Shown here: positions 18,787 through 23,748 of the stretch, piece after piece
Layout of the letters: the number at the start of each line of letters is the position of its first letter
Position numbering within the stretch: the first letter of the stretch is position 1
Assembly: GCA_023134715.1 (NCBI GenBank)
Contig: JAGLUP010000006.1
Coordinates: 1-64,000 of the forward strand
DNA from: Candidatus Parcubacteria bacterium
GTDB taxonomy: Bacteria > Patescibacteriota > Minisyncoccia > Minisyncoccales > JAGLUP01
Direction: 5' to 3'
DNA: 64,000 nucleotides
Notes under the pieces: generated by a model
Database searches by the model: none
What the model saw: only the letters and a program-made list of their open reading frames with translations
Told to the model about the DNA's origin: nothing
Translations under genes and position numbers: made by a program

Positions 18787-18789
18787 CAG

Positions 18790-19153
18790 GCCCAAGCAGA
18801 CTATAAGCCGAATTCTGTCTTGGACAATCATTTATCTTTGCGAACCACTTTTCACAAAAATTCTACTATAATTTGCAGAATCTCTGGTTTGTTCTTGCAC
18901 CCTGATAAGGATTTAGCCGTTTCACCTCTGTATTGCTACAGAGCTCGCCCAGTCATTCGACCGGGCGGTTTAATCCTTTCAGATTAAACCGTCTCTGCTC
19001 GCACCTCTAGCCTTGCAGCCGCTTCGTTTTCACGAAGTATCTTTTTAGACCCCCCTCTTTTGCGCAAGCGCGAAAAGAGGGGGGAATGAGTGTTCGGACT
19101 TTCCTCTCCGATGAATATAATGCATCGGAGCGATTGTCTTGTCTACTTGAGCT
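18790..19153 (-). ncRNA. rnpB: RNase P RNA (type A)
   Basis: Conserved blocks on the minus strand are GAGAGGAAAGTCCGAACA (CR-I side), GCAAGGCTAGAGGTGCGAG, GGTGAAACGGCTAAATCC and the 3' block ACAGAATTCGGCTTATAG. P1 pairs CAAGTAGAC with GTCTGCTTG. The P12-like hairpin GGTTTAATC/GATTAAACC is clear. The RNA forms the catalytic part of RNase P, which trims tRNA 5' ends. A 35-bp palindrome at 19050-19084, found twice more in the window, forms one of its variable helices. The ends are set by P1 and are accurate to a few bases. Confidence 0.93.
19050..19084. repeat. C6TCTTTT palindrome inside rnpB, copy 1
   Basis: The 35-bp near-perfect inverted repeat has arms cccccctctttt and aaaagagggggg around gcgcaagcgcg. 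Other copies lie at 36560-36593 and 37780-37814. Confidence 0.85.
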
Positions 19154-19171: not shown

Positions 19172-19654
19172 TCACAAAAGTCTGTCAACGCTAAACTCCT
19201 TGTCTAACGCCTCATTAGCCAATGCGTCTGCTTTTTTATTTTCTTCTCTTGGAATATGAAAAAATGTTATTTTGCCAAAATCAATTTTTAAATTCCAAAT
19301 TTGTAAAAACAATGATTGAATTCTTGGCTCTAAAACTTTATATTTTCCTTGAACCTGTTTTACTAAAAATTCAGAGTCAGATTTTATTTCAATATCTAAT
19401 TCCTTAATTTTCTTTTTTCCAAATAAATGCTTAATCTTTTTCAAAGCAAAAATTACTGCCTGATATTCTGCCTCATTATTAGTTCCCTCTCCTATATATT
19501 CAGAATACTCTTTAATAAGCTGTTCTTTTTCATTACCCGCCTGCAACGCCTTCCCGCCTTGGCGGGATGCGGGCAGGTAAACAGCCGCGCCGATTGCCGA
19601 AGGTCCTGGATTACCCCGTGACCCGCCGTCTGTATAGACTATTAGTTTCTTCAT
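19172..19654 (-). CDS. Ribonuclease H (RNase HI family)
   Basis: 160 residues. The fold start IVYTDGGSRGNPGPSA carries the first catalytic Asp (D9). The catalytic Glu is in TNNEAEYQAV, and the third acid is in IEIKSDSEFLV. The enzyme cuts RNA in RNA-DNA hybrids. About 20 extra residues (LPASRQGGKALQAGNEK) after the first strand are encoded by a GC-rich palindrome at 19535-19578. The gene lies 5 bp downstream of the DHH gene. Confidence 0.92.
   Translation of the reverse strand: MKKLIVYTDGGSRGNPGPSAIGAAVYLPASRQGGKALQAGNEKEQLIKEYSEYIGEGTNNEAEYQAVIFALKKIKHLFGKKKIKELDIEIKSDSEFLVKQVQGKYKVLEPRIQSLFLQIWNLKIDFGKITFFHIPREENKKADALANEALDKEFSVDRLL
19535..19578. repeat. GC-rich palindromic insert within the RNase H gene
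   Basis: The arms acccgcctgc and gcgggcaggt flank a second inner palindrome cccgccttggcggg. It adds in-frame codons to a loop of the protein. Confidence 0.75.
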
Positions 19655-19659
19655 ATTTT

Positions 19660-20781
19660 CTAAATCGTTTTAAAATATTTAATTAAACATTCTTTAAACT
19701 CTTCTAAATTTTTATTATCCAGAGAAAACCCGGCTGCTGGCGGATGGCCGCCATAAGTTTCTAAAAGCTTATGACAGCTTGCCATTGCCTTAACCGCGTC
19801 AAGTCCTTCGGGCATGCGAACCGCGCCCTGACTTTGCTTTTTGCCAATACGAAAAATAAAAGTTGGCTTTTTATATTCTCTACAAATCCGAGTAGCGACA
19901 GGTCCGGCTAAAACCAATGGCCAGGAAGAATCTCCTTCAAAAATAATTGTTTTTTCTATTTTTTCATAAATTCTTATCTGCGTTTGTTCGGTTATTTCTT
20001 TAGTTCTCAAATGCTTTTGTTTTCTTTTTTCAATAAGCTTTTCGGCTATTTTTTCAGCTTTTTTAAAAGAAGAAGCTGTTAAAAGTATATACGCTTCATT
20101 GATATGATTTTTTATTCCAGCCGCATTGAGAGTTGAAATAGTTTTTTGAAGCTCTCCTTTAAAAACTTGAAGTCCTGGCCTCCATGTATTTTCTAACGCA
20201 ATTAATCCTTGTTCAACTATATCTTTATTGTCCTTAATTTGCGGCATCATATCAGAAATAGTAGCTATCGCCGCAAGTTCTAAAAAACTATTCTTTAAAC
20301 TCTCTCCTATATTTTTACCTAAAATCACTTCAGAAAGCTTATAAGTAACTCCTGCCGCGCATAATTCTTTAAAAGGATATTTATCTTGTTTTTGCTTTGG
20401 GTTCACAACTAATGCTTTTGGCAATGGTATATTGTCTAATGCTGTATGATGGTCCACTATTATCACTTCAAAACCTAATTTTTTAGCGACCTCTACTTCT
20501 TTAAAGTTAGCTATTCCTAAATCTAATGAAATAAATAACGCTGGCGAATATTTTTCTGCCAAAAAATTAAGCGCGTTTTCATTGATTCCATAACCCTCTT
20601 TTTCTCTGTCAGGAAAATAGCAGGCAGAAACTTCGCCTCCCAGGTTTTTAATTGTTTCTTCTAAAATAACAACCGAGCAAACTCCATCAGGGTCGGCGTC
20701 TCCATAAAGAATAATTTTTTCTTTATTCTTCACTGCTTTTTTAATCCTATTTGCCGCTTTTTTTAAATTCTTTATCTGCAT
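19660..20781 (-). CDS. DHH-family phosphoesterase, RecJ-like
   Basis: 373 residues, shorter than classical RecJ (about 570). Motif I is ILYGDADPDGVCS (24-36), with DADPDG instead of the usual DYDADG. The DHH motif VDHHTALD lies near 110, and a DHHA1-type C-terminus has SQGAVRMPEGLDA and GGHPPAAGFSL. Such enzymes are 5'-3' single-strand exonucleases or related phosphodiesterases. It heads a two-gene unit with RNase H, consistent with nucleic acid turnover. RecJ or nanoRNase activity cannot be separated by sequence alone. Confidence 0.82.
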   Translation of the reverse strand: MQIKNLKKAANRIKKAVKNKEKIILYGDADPDGVCSVVILEETIKNLGGEVSACYFPDREKEGYGINENALNFLAEKYSPALFISLDLGIANFKEVEVAKKLGFEVIIVDHHTALDNIPLPKALVVNPKQKQDKYPFKELCAAGVTYKLSEVILGKNIGESLKNSFLELAAIATISDMMPQIKDNKDIVEQGLIALENTWRPGLQVFKGELQKTISTLNAAGIKNHINEAYILLTASSFKKAEKIAEKLIEKRKQKHLRTKEITEQTQIRIYEKIEKTIIFEGDSSWPLVLAGPVATRICREYKKPTFIFRIGKKQSQGAVRMPEGLDAVKAMASCHKLLETYGGHPPAAGFSLDNKNLEEFKECLIKYFKTI

Positions 20782-20832
20782 AATATATGATGCGAATATA
20801 AACTTATTTCATTATATCAAAACAAAAACCCC

Positions 20833-20860
20833 TTGACAAATTTTAATAATTTGATATAAT
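20833..20860 (+). promoter_or_regulatory. Strong promoter of structured transcript 1
   Basis: TTGACA (20833-20838) and TATAAT (20855-20860) are both perfect, with a 16-bp spacer. No protein gene follows on this strand. Confidence 0.88.
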
Positions 20861-20866
20861 GACAAT

Positions 20867-21110
20867 GGTGGAGCTGGGGACTAAGTAAAACTATTAGGGT
20901 TGCTCTGGTACCTCGTAAAACTAGATGGCTAGCTATTAGTCTAACATGCGTTTCCCCCCAGAAAGATAAGGTTTCAAGATAATAGTTTCCCTTATCTGTT
21001 CTCCTTTTAATTAGTTCTTTAAGTGTTCATTCACAATCCCGAGATTCAAAGATTGAATCTCAAAAACAAAAAAAATAGGCAAATGACTATAAGTTATTAT
21101 GCCTATTAAT
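20867..21110 (+). ncRNA. Putative structured small RNA 1
   Basis: A transcript starting near 20867 has nested complementary segments: CTGGGGAC (20873-20882) with GTTTCCCCCCAG (20950-20961), GACTAA with TTAGTC (to 20941), and a hairpin GATAAGG/CCTTATC at 20965-20997. A boxA-like agttctttaag follows at 21013-21023. Only tiny frames exist (MVELGTK, 7 codons). It is neither tmRNA nor 6S RNA as far as I can tell. The 3' end is uncertain; the shared hairpin at 21074-21107 is one candidate. It covers most of the gene-free stretch 20782-21130. Confidence 0.5.
21061..21107 (-). terminator. Terminator of hicBA
   Basis: On the minus strand, the stem AATAGGCA/TGCCTATT is followed by TTTTTTTGTTTTT, 24 bp after the hicA stop. 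Confidence 0.85.
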
Positions 21111-21130
21111 TTTGGATTATTTTCTGTAGG

Positions 21131-21343
21131 TTAAATTTTATCCCAATCTTGCTTATTTATTCCTGCCTGGCGGAGAATTTCACTAACCAATCCAGCGCTA
21201 ATATTTCCTTTGTGCTTAGATGGTATATGAATTTTCAAAACGCCTTTTTTCATAAATTGATGTCTGCCTCCGCTATAAGGACCCTCAAAACCAAATTTCC
21301 TAAATTTCTGAACCAATTTTCTCCAAGAAATATTTTTAGGCAT
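21131..21343 (-). CDS. hicA: HicA-family toxin (mRNA interferase)
   Basis: 70 residues. The HicA double-stranded-RNA-binding-like fold shows WRKLVQKFRKFGFE and the catalytic histidine in SGGRHQFMKK, then KIHIPSKHKGNISAGLVSEILRQAGI. It cleaves mRNA when free of antitoxin. Its start overlaps the antitoxin gene by 8 bp. It lies antisense to the region just after structured transcript 1. Confidence 0.92.
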   Translation of the reverse strand: MPKNISWRKLVQKFRKFGFEGPYSGGRHQFMKKGVLKIHIPSKHKGNISAGLVSEILRQAGINKQDWDKI

Positions 21344-21587
21344 AGTTTGGAACCAACACTTTGTGTTTAACTTTTTTTATTGAAAAACCAGGAATTGAAT
21401 CTCCGTCCTGTAATTTCAAAATCAACCATTCTTCTAAAACCTCACGAAGATTTTCTCGACACTTTTCCAAAGTTTTTTCAGATGCCCAAACGCCTTGAAG
21501 TCCTGGAATCTCGCCAAAATAAGCTCCATCTTCTAAAATTTTGTAGTGAGCTTGATTTAGTTTTTTGAAAATATAATTTGTTAACAT
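21336..21587 (-). CDS. hicB: HicB-family antitoxin
   Basis: 83 residues with the HicB partial RNase H-like fold: AHYKILEDGAYFGEIPGLQGVWASEKTLEKCRENLREVLEEW. No C-terminal DNA-binding domain is visible, unlike some longer HicB proteins. It is transcribed first in the pair, antitoxin before toxin. It binds and blocks HicA. Confidence 0.9.
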   Translation of the reverse strand: MLTNYIFKKLNQAHYKILEDGAYFGEIPGLQGVWASEKTLEKCRENLREVLEEWLILKLQDGDSIPGFSIKKVKHKVLVPNYA

Positions 21588-21627
21588 TAATTTTATTATA
21601 AATTTTTAAAATCTAATGTCAATACCC

Positions 21628-21655
21628 TTGACAAATTCGGGAAATGTGGTATTCT
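21628..21655 (+). promoter_or_regulatory. Promoter of structured transcript 2
   Basis: TTGACA (21628-21633) and TATTCT (21650-21655) have a 16-bp spacer. The whole promoter resembles that at 22243-22270, including the flanking cttgacaaatt and ggtat. Confidence 0.85.
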
Positions 21656-21660
21656 TAAAA

Positions 21661-21834
21661 CTAGAATGGAGGGAGGAAAAGGAGACCACAAATCCCTTGC
21701 ATGTTTTATTAAACATGACGTTGATAATCCCTCTATTCTATTATCTTTATAGCACATTCACAATCCAGAGCTCAAAACCATAAGGCGTAGATAAATTGAA
21801 TAATTATCATTCAATATTATCTCGCCTTTTTTCT
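21661..21834 (+). ncRNA. Putative structured small RNA 2
   Basis: About 174 nt. An outer stem TAGAATGGAGGGA (21662-21674) with TCCCTCTATTCTA (21728-21740) encloses an inner hairpin ATGTTTTATTAAACAT. A strong terminator ends it at 21782-21834. A 28-codon frame (ATG at 21666, MEGGKGDHKS to SILLSL) lies within the outer stem, but no ribosome binding site precedes it. A regulatory RNA is the simpler reading; a small protein is not excluded. Confidence 0.55.
21782..21834 (+). terminator. Terminator of structured transcript 2
   Basis: The stem AAGGCG-AGATA-TGAAT with ATTCA-TATCT-CGCCTT is followed by TTTTTTCTTT on the plus strand. Confidence 0.88.
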
Positions 21835-21835
21835 T

Positions 21836-21880
21836 TGGGTCAAATACTTTACCTGCGGCCGCAGATGGAGTATTTGAGTT
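21836..21880. repeat. GCGGCCGC-centred dispersed repeat, copy 2
   Basis: It holds gggtcaaatactttacctgcgg, the palindrome gcggccgc and agatgg. It shares the left flank with the copy at 12004 and lies between transcript 2 and the promoter of transcript 3. Confidence 0.7.
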
Positions 21881-21900
21881 TTATAAATAGCTGGAAACCC

Positions 21901-21929
21901 TTGACAGATTTCATAAGTTATGTTATTAT
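21901..21929 (+). promoter_or_regulatory. Promoter of structured transcript 3
   Basis: TTGACA (21901-21906) and TATTAT (21924-21929) have a 17-bp spacer. Confidence 0.82.
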
Positions 21930-21935
21930 ATAAAT

Positions 21936-22229
21936 AATGCTGAGCTAATCCGGCAGGAATTACAAACAAAACTGGATCCGAGGAAGCGCTGGAAGGAAGG
22001 TTCCTTCCAGCATCCTCATTCTATATATCGTTCATTCACAATTTACAACTCACAAAATTTCAGAAAAAATATAAAAAGGGATTGAAATGTAAAACATAAT
22101 CGTTAAATACGGCCCGAGCAGGGTAAGTATATGGACAAAGAAGATAATTTTCTTCTAGTCCCTATACAAGAATTATATTTATTTCATTTTCAATCTCCTA
22201 AAACATAACATTCAAGTTATGTTTTTTAA
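21936..22229 (+). ncRNA. Putative structured small RNA 3
   Basis: About 290 nt. A perfect hairpin GCTGGAAGGAA/TTCCTTCCAGC (21990-22014) sits between GAGGA and TCCTC. A second domain pairs GGGATTGAAATG (22079-22090) with CATTTTCAATCTCC (22185-22198) and contains the hairpin AGAAGATAATTTTCTTCT. The transcript ends at the terminator AAACATAAC/GTTATGTTTTTT. One frame stays open for much of it but lacks a usable start codon. The match to known RNA classes is unknown. Confidence 0.5.
22201..22229 (+). terminator. Terminator of structured transcript 3
   Basis: The stem AAACATAAC/GTTATGTTT has the loop ATTCA and is followed by a T run. Confidence 0.88.
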
Positions 22230-22242
22230 ATTGCCATAAATC

Positions 22243-22270
22243 TTGACAAATTTCTGGAATATGGTATACT
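22243..22270 (+). promoter_or_regulatory. Promoter of structured transcript 4
   Basis: TTGACA (22243-22248) and TATACT (22265-22270) have a 16-bp spacer. Confidence 0.88.
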
Positions 22271-22276
22271 TAAAAT

Positions 22277-22433
22277 ACAGCTGAGACAATCAGCTTCACA
22301 GGTCCCGTTGTCAGATCGGAAGATGAAACTGACCGGTGAAAGGTGGAAGATAGTTCTTTGACCTTTCCTCGTAAGAAATAGGATTATTTAAATGCGTTCC
22401 GCTTCGTAGACCCAAGCGGATTGGCTGGGGAGG
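22277..22433 (+). ncRNA. Putative structured RNA 4 or long 5' leader
   Basis: Successive hairpins are seen: AGCTGA/TCAGCT, GTCAG/CTGAC with a GGAA apex, GAAAGGT/ACCTTTC enclosing a boxA-like agttctttga, and CCGCTT/AAGCGG. The GGAA apex recalls the SRP RNA tip, but the required AGCA on the 3' side is absent. It runs directly into the open frame at 22434, so it could be a regulatory leader rather than an independent RNA. Confidence 0.5.
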
Positions 22434-22676
22434 GTGAGGAAAGTTCTCTTTCCAGTCCCTCCTCGGTCGAATAAATTAGTTGTTCTTTTCAAAAGACAAA
22501 AGAGGTTCATAAGAGAGCAATCGGGGGCAATAGTAGCAAAAATAGAATCTAAAGAAGTAGTAGAGAATTTTATCCCTTATATAATAGAAGCTGATCTAAT
22601 TAAGAGCATTAAAAACAAATCCCCCGGCTCAATTCTTGATGAATTTCTAGAAAGGTACAAGATATTGAATTATTGA
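22434..22676 (+). CDS. Possible small protein or gene remnant
   Basis: 80 codons from GTG. A GGGGAGG lies directly before the start, too close for ideal initiation. The first 25 residues are basic and proline-containing (RKVLFPVPPRSNK). The remainder looks like ordinary coding sequence (AIVAKIESKEVVENFIPYII and GSILDEFLERYKIL). No other start exists in frame and no family is recognised. It may be a remnant of a longer gene. Confidence 0.4.
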   Translation: MRKVLFPVPPRSNKLVVLFKRQKRFIREQSGAIVAKIESKEVVENFIPYIIEADLIKSIKNKSPGSILDEFLERYKILNY

Positions 22677-22698
22677 ATTTCAATATCCGCTGTGCCTT

Positions 22699-23748
22699 TT
22701 AATTTTGGTTCAAAGCGTCTATTCCAACTAATTTGCCGTCAACAAGATAATCAATCATTGCGCCGCCGCCAGTGGAAATGTGGTCAAATTTATCTGCCAA
22801 ATTTATTTCTTTTAAAAACTCAATTGTCTCCCCTCCTCCGATCACTGAATAAGCGCCTGATTCAATAATTTTTTCGGCAATTTTACTTGTTCCGTTTTGG
22901 AACTCTTTTTTTTCAATCTTGCCTAACGGTCCGTTCCAAAAAATTGTTTTTGCCTGCAAAATTTTTTCTGTAAAAAGAGCAATCGTTTTAGAATCAATGT
23001 CAGAAGGAGCTGTTTTCATAGAAATATCAACATCTTTAGATAAAATTACATTTTCAGGCAGGGAAATTTTATTTTTTAAAATCTGCAAAGATAAAACACT
23101 GCTGACTAAAATAAAATCGCAAATTTGTGAAAGTTTTTCTACAAGTTTAATTTTTGTTTTAAGCTTTATCCCTCCTATTATTGCCACCAACGGCCTTGAG
23201 GGATTTTTAACAACCTTTTGTAAGGAGCTAAGCTCCTTACATAATAAAAAACCAGCCCCAGAAGGCAGGTATTTCGGCAAAGACACGATAGAAGCGTGAG
23301 AACGATGACAGCAAGCAAACGCTTCTTGAATAAAAATATCACCTAATTTTGCCAGCTGCTTGGCAAAAACTTGAGCATTCCCCTCCTCGCCCTTATAAAA
23401 TCTAAGATTTTCTAAAACAACAATTTCTCCGGACTGAATTTTATCTATCTCTTTCTCTACATCTTCGCCAATACAATCTGGCAAAAAACTAATCTTTCGC
23501 CCTAATAATTTTTCCAATCGCAAACCAACAGGTTTTAAGCTATATTTAGCTGACGGTTCAGTCGGCCTGCCTAGATGACTAATTAAAACAATCTTAGCTT
23601 TATTTTTCAGCAAATATCTTATTGTCGGAAAAACCTGTTTAATCCGAAAATCATCTAAAATATTCCCCTTATTATCAAGAGGAACATTGAAATCGCATCT
23701 AACCAAAACGCGTTTATTATTTACATCAAAATCCTCAAGGATTTTCAT
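22699..23748 (-). CDS. pgk: Phosphoglycerate kinase
   Basis: 349 residues, shorter than usual (about 390-400). Substrate motifs are VLVRCDFNVPL (14-24), SHLGRP (56-61) and FIQEAFACCHRSHAS. The nucleotide side has WNGPLGKIE, GGGETI and STGGGAMIDYL. The usual GGAKVSDKI is GGIKLKTKI here. It makes ATP from 1,3-bisphosphoglycerate. Residues KELSSL near 170 are encoded by a palindrome that recurs between genes (23222-23238). Its start is 4 bp after the stop of the VirD4-like gene. Confidence 0.95.
   Translation of the reverse strand: MKILEDFDVNNKRVLVRCDFNVPLDNKGNILDDFRIKQVFPTIRYLLKNKAKIVLISHLGRPTEPSAKYSLKPVGLRLEKLLGRKISFLPDCIGEDVEKEIDKIQSGEIVVLENLRFYKGEEGNAQVFAKQLAKLGDIFIQEAFACCHRSHASIVSLPKYLPSGAGFLLCKELSSLQKVVKNPSRPLVAIIGGIKLKTKIKLVEKLSQICDFILVSSVLSLQILKNKISLPENVILSKDVDISMKTAPSDIDSKTIALFTEKILQAKTIFWNGPLGKIEKKEFQNGTSKIAEKIIESGAYSVIGGGETIEFLKEINLADKFDHISTGGGAMIDYLVDGKLVGIDALNQN
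23222..23238. repeat. AAGGAGCTWAGCTCCTT palindrome inside pgk
   Basis: A perfect 17-bp inverted repeat, here in frame and coding KELSS. Perfect copies also lie in prfB (11663-11679) and between genes at 29479-29495 and 30382-30398. A longer relative is at 40181-40207. Confidence 0.75.

Follow-up and report, generated by a model that had tools for sequence, protein, structure and literature searches.

A cluster of four candidate structured non-coding RNA genes in the dhh-pgk spacer of a Candidatus Parcubacteria bacterium, with counterparts at the same position in related genomes

The window, a stretch of 64,000 nucleotides, belongs to a genome of 762 kb in 12 contigs, and the locus described here is its dhh-pgk spacer (20782-22698), which is bordered by two minus-strand genes. 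On the left lies dhh (19660..20781; Pfam DHH/DHHA1), a RecJ-like DHH phosphoesterase gene whose product matches the NCBIfam recJ model at 1.3e-82 yet falls under the cut-off of that model, and on the right lies pgk, the phosphoglycerate kinase gene (22699..23748; Pfam PGK, 3.9e-115). Inside the spacer, the hicA toxin gene (21131..21343; Pfam HicA_toxin, 3.6e-10) and a hicB-like antitoxin gene (21336..21587; Pfam UPF0150, 2.3e-28) are the only recognised protein genes, and both are on the minus strand, opposite to the four predicted RNAs (R1 to R4), as an earlier reading made from the sequence alone (the sequence-only reading) had said. A near-perfect palindrome, TCAAATACTTTACCTGCGGCCGCAGATGGAGTATTTGA, is found at 21840-21877 between R2 and R3; it is a REP-like element that also has copies on contigs C5, C7, and C9 of the same genome. 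Just outside the cluster, a class A RNase P RNA was found by covariance model on the minus strand (18789-19149), with its own consensus promoter at 19188. Standard Rfam annotation misses this gene because it scores 80 bits and the gathering score is 100.

The sequence-only reading had placed four near-consensus promoters on the plus strand of the spacer, and all of them are present, with 10 to 12 of 12 consensus positions matched. The R1 promoter (20833..20860) is TTGACA-16-TATAAT with an extended -10 and matches at 12/12; the R2 promoter (21628..21655) matches at 10/12, and those of R3 (21901..21929; TTGACA-17-TATTAT) and R4 (22243..22270; TTGACA-16-TATACT) at 11/12, all three with a TG before the -10. 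The pattern TTGACA-N15-18-TATWMT occurs six times in the window, against 0.31 expected. When extended -10 promoters (TTGACA, 16- or 17-nt spacer, TGN, TATNNT) were counted in 747 kb of the genome we found 34, four of them in the dhh-pgk spacer. Four such promoters within 1500 nt on one strand arose in 1 of 2000 random-placement trials, and no other 1.5-kb one-strand stretch of this genome held more than two in the genome-wide count. Each of R1-R4 has a promoter of its own, which is one of the marks of an independent small RNA. Two minus-strand promoters are also present: that of hicBA (21622-21595) stands back to back with the R2 promoter, and that of dhh (20839-20811) overlaps the R1 promoter. 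In this last case (20811-20862) the -35 boxes overlap (TTGACAA/TTGTCAA) and the -10 regions mirror each other as a 13-nt inverted repeat, giving a nearly symmetric bidirectional promoter. Elsewhere in the genome, near-identical promoter-leader segments, TGTTAGGAGAGAGAAACTGATTTTA..., precede different genes (C5:6659, 54516, 59317, 131729, and 202214), and in those that were read further a boxA-like CTTTAA/CTTTGA element accompanies a terminator-like hairpin.

Downstream of these promoters, the sequence suggests four transcripts. R1 is a predicted ncRNA of ~250 nt (20866..21115), divergent from dhh, whose end is uncertain: the hairpin at 21080-21112 is a weak terminator on the plus strand and a good one for minus-strand hicA only. 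R2 would be ~170 nt long (21661..21832), with a closed domain (21662-21740), a tail (21753-21767), and a strong terminator (21782-21832). R3 would span ~290 nt (21936..22227), in which a hairpin (21980-22017) and a tail (22031-22044) are followed by a multibranched domain (~22077-22199) and an A/T-rich terminator (22202-22227). Finally, R4 is predicted to be at least ~210 nt long (22277..22489), with five hairpins, among them a long GC hairpin at 22423-22468, and a possible closing helix; no clear terminator was found in its sequence. Clear terminators had been claimed for the second and third transcripts, in agreement with these results. The claim that the transcripts are structured stands for three of them, as R2, R3, and R4 each fold better than all 200 of 200 dinucleotide shuffles (z of -5.3, -6.6, and -5.4), and is weak for R1 (z of +0.9 for the 5' 175 nt, and -2.6 at full length with the 3' hairpins).

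Coding capacity on the plus strand is as limited as had been proposed. ORFs inside R1-R3 do not exceed 28 codons, the longest being within R1. A GTG ORF of 80 codons (22434-22676, plus strand) begins within an R4 hairpin, and it has no family match in Pfam, NCBIfam, or PHROG. No conserved coding frame was found, R1-R3 having only short ORFs and the RNAs of relatives showing stops and out-of-frame indels. The units could nevertheless be 5' leaders (attenuators or cis-regulatory UTRs) of lost or decayed genes, and this is the main rival explanation because structured leaders that contain boxA-like elements are common in this genome. In fact, many of its strong promoters are followed by long structured leaders that belong to real genes, R1 and R4 carry the boxA-like TTAGTTCTTTAAG and GTTGTTCTTTTCAAAAG, R3 holds an mRNA-like AAAATATAAAAAGGGATTGAAATG with a stop codon immediately after it, and the 80-codon ORF overlaps and follows R4. 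However, R2 and R3 terminate on their own before any ORF, the units found in four other genomes (G008, G040, G039, and G172, see below) end in terminators without an ORF, and four consecutive decayed leaders would be unparsimonious, so that we consider this explanation rather unlikely.

With respect to known RNAs, nearly all of the genome was scanned with the 4227 models of Rfam release 15 at gathering score, and no match was found in the cluster. R1-R4 are like Rfam families in being, by prediction, structured, promoter-driven, and non-coding. The covariance-model search that the sequence-only reading had asked for gave nothing significant on 20780-22720 even at E<=10, the best value (0.11) corresponding to the antisense RNA Spy392987, an A/T-rich hairpin; this supports its view of a cluster of small ncRNAs that do not match tmRNA, 6S RNA, or SRP RNA. 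In particular, tmRNA had no covariance-model match in the locus and was found on contig C8, RNase P RNA had none in the cluster and was found at the position given above, and neither 6S RNA nor SRP RNA (RF00169) had a match at the locus. The bacterial small SRP RNA was not found by RF00169 at E<=10 in any of the 12 genomes tested from the order, this one among them and some rated 100% complete, and 13 of 14 control genomes were positive in this test; a regular expression did not find SRP RNA either. A search of the literature found no paper on an RNA locus between dhh and pgk.

We also compared the spacer with that of relatives, all of them members of other families in the order, since the genomes searched included none from the genus or family of the window genome. 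The dhh-pgk adjacency exists in most of them, usually with 0-480 bp between the genes, and most genomes examined have no RNA there. A promoter followed by a predicted structured RNA was found in the dhh-pgk spacer of six other genomes (G008, G040, G039, G057, G113, and G172) from five other families, and an apparent promoter remnant in G043 and G044. In the case of G008, the spacer (942 bp) follows the same plan as that of the window: starting from dhh, it has a divergent promoter with its RNA, a minus-strand toxin-antitoxin pair of RelE type (identified by reading the sequence), and another promoter with its RNA before pgk. The two G008 RNAs (136 and 202 nt) are terminated, contain no ORF of more than 16 codons, and are paralogs that resemble each other at the ends and differ in the middle. 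In G040, which is in the same genus as G008, fragments of three RNAs of this kind are present and the same toxin-antitoxin pair separates two of them; the RNAs of both genomes share the closing helix UGUUGGC/GCCAACA. A pattern of promoter plus TGTTGG also returns gene leaders, so this 5' motif alone is not diagnostic. In G039, G057, G113, and G172 the promoter and structured RNA are directly divergent from dhh. As promoter-driven RNAs occupy the same spot in at least six other genomes, a real and fast-changing RNA gene locus seems likely.

The arrangement in both lineages, in which a minus-strand toxin-antitoxin operon and an RNA promoter lie back to back (hicBA with R2 in the window, and the relBE-like pair with the second RNA in G008 and G040), raises the possibility that the RNAs are functionally part of toxin-antitoxin modules, for instance as divergent RNA regulators or antitoxins. 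Type III toxin-antitoxin systems such as ToxIN do have a structured RNA adjoining the toxin gene, and R1-R4 resemble them in this placement; hicBA, however, consists of two proteins and is encoded on the opposite strand, and no tandem-repeat RNA antitoxin precedes the toxin. Moreover, the toxin-antitoxin families differ (hicBA in the window and relBE-like in G008/G040), and hicBA homologs with 64-77% DNA identity elsewhere in the order have no such RNAs alongside, so that the module can exist without the RNA. In addition, G039, G113, G057, and G172 have the RNA, and no toxin-antitoxin pair was recognised in their spacers. A module function is therefore highly improbable.

Strong conservation was found between G057 and G113, which belong to two families. 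Their RNAs have a core that is 89.9% identical over 199 aligned bases, against 65.5% for dhh and 68.1% for pgk, and a 5' part that is only 64% identical. That this core has outlasted the flanking genes in identity implies strong constraint or exchange between lineages. Codon-level conservation, which the sequence-only reading had named as a refuting observation, is not what this alignment presents, since stops and out-of-frame indels abound in the conserved RNA. In this two-sequence alignment, 7 of 59 predicted pairs are compensatory; the compensatory changes expected in relatives were thus obtained for this pair and not for R1-R4 themselves. According to BLAST of the cluster against 247 genomes of the order, only hicBA, the promoters, and the palindromic repeat have matches, and the RNA bodies of R1-R4 have no BLAST homolog in the 246 other genomes. 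A protein-based scan of a genome collection returned a single relative, which does not have the RNA. Phage records and viral contigs gave no match to the cluster, the promoter pattern, or the G057/G113 core, nor did plasmid records to the G057 RNA. Outside dhh-pgk, another promoter-driven, terminator-closed structured RNA was seen in G118 (C20:18865; L202), beside a gspE-like gene.

R1, R2, and R3 have in common a 3' tail, CAUUCACAAU, with a repeat centred around CATTCACAAT; the R1 tail is UUCAUUCACAAUCC (21026..21039, plus strand). In local alignments compared with shuffles, with p values that are nominal and per pair, R1-R2 gave p=0.0008 and R2-R3 p=0.010, and the G113 RNA tail resembled those of R2 (p=0.0024) and R3 (p=0.0064). 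R4 does not have this tail, and its only link to the other units is a purine/pyrimidine hairpin shared with R3 (p=0.0084). A G113+G057 profile run with nhmmer on the whole genome gave the R2 tail (21733-21787, plus strand) as its second-best match, at E=1.9 genome-wide and ~0.002 only if restricted to the 1.7-kb locus. The proposal of one diverged family is only half borne out, by the tail of R1-R3, which R4 lacks, and the 5' domains and bodies of R1-R4 could not be aligned; on the basis of the pairwise alignments and the profile match, we regard the locus and the R1-R3 tail as common, and a single family as not proven.

These similarities bear on another explanation, namely that the dhh-pgk spacer is a mere insertion hot spot for unrelated promoter-bearing fragments, alike by chance or by promoter convergence. 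The G043 spacer does contain a transposase-like gene and those of G036 and G032 other genes, the palindromic repeat between R2 and R3 has copies elsewhere in the genome, and promoter spacers are alike across the whole genome. However, the strand, the position beside dhh, and the succession of promoter, fold, and terminator all recur in six other genomes, a 90% identical core is present in two families, and tails are held in common, which makes a hot spot very unlikely.

Taken together, we consider that R1-R4 are quite probably ncRNA genes, judging from their promoters, folds, and lack of recognisable coding, and that the dhh-pgk spacer contains four separately promoted structured ncRNA genes, probably regulatory, at an old, rapidly evolving locus that recurs in several families of the order, a reading to which we give a probability of roughly two in three. 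How they might regulate is a more tentative matter. The likeliest mode, which we nevertheless hold to be less probable than not, is that they would be constitutively made regulatory RNAs acting in trans, with a stable fold at the 5' side and, in R1-R3, the exposed A/C/U-rich tail behind it, through which they may bind either a target RNA or an RNA-binding protein, and with an intrinsic terminator that would form the 3' end. Pairing of the tail to gene starts through an anti-start-codon seed gave no significant result, since 15 of 200 and 25 of 200 shuffles were as good. Pairing to the canonical anti-Shine-Dalgarno was rejected as well: only two G008/G040 RNAs stood out, and the 16S rRNA of the window genome does not have this sequence. 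On the ribosome side, 16S rRNA genes without the canonical anti-Shine-Dalgarno were seen in this genome (C5:148234-148400; L164) and in six others of the order (L159-L163 and L165). Downstream of helix 45 their sequence is GGAUUAUCACAUUU, GGAUCAUUAAAUUU, or similar, and a structured trailer of ~110 nt comes next; in an alignment of six genomes, compensatory changes were seen in 14 of 22 predicted pairs; an SD-like AGGTGA still precedes ~4% of starts.

Clusters of paralogous bacterial small RNAs are known, such as the Qrr RNAs and the CiaR-dependent csRNAs. Compared by description, these are like R1-R4 in consisting of several short RNAs with their own promoters and terminators, a shared segment, and different bodies; unlike them, R1-R4 are tandem copies in one spacer, and their bodies are far more divergent. 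It is conceivable, though on present evidence we hold it unlikely, that an ancestral RNA gene of the order has had its fixed locus between dhh and pgk, keeping a core or tail while the 5' domain was swapped, giving rise to tandem paralogs in some lineages and being lost in most. It would then be a new class of ncRNA, possibly exchanged between lineages via the conserved flanking genes.

Knowledge of regulatory RNA in Patescibacteria seems to be scant. An ncRNA locus that is syntenic, promoter-driven, and conserved in part, and that has no Rfam counterpart, provides a concrete target for metatranscriptomics, and it offers a case of an RNA core that is conserved beyond its flanking protein genes, beside a domain that changes freely.
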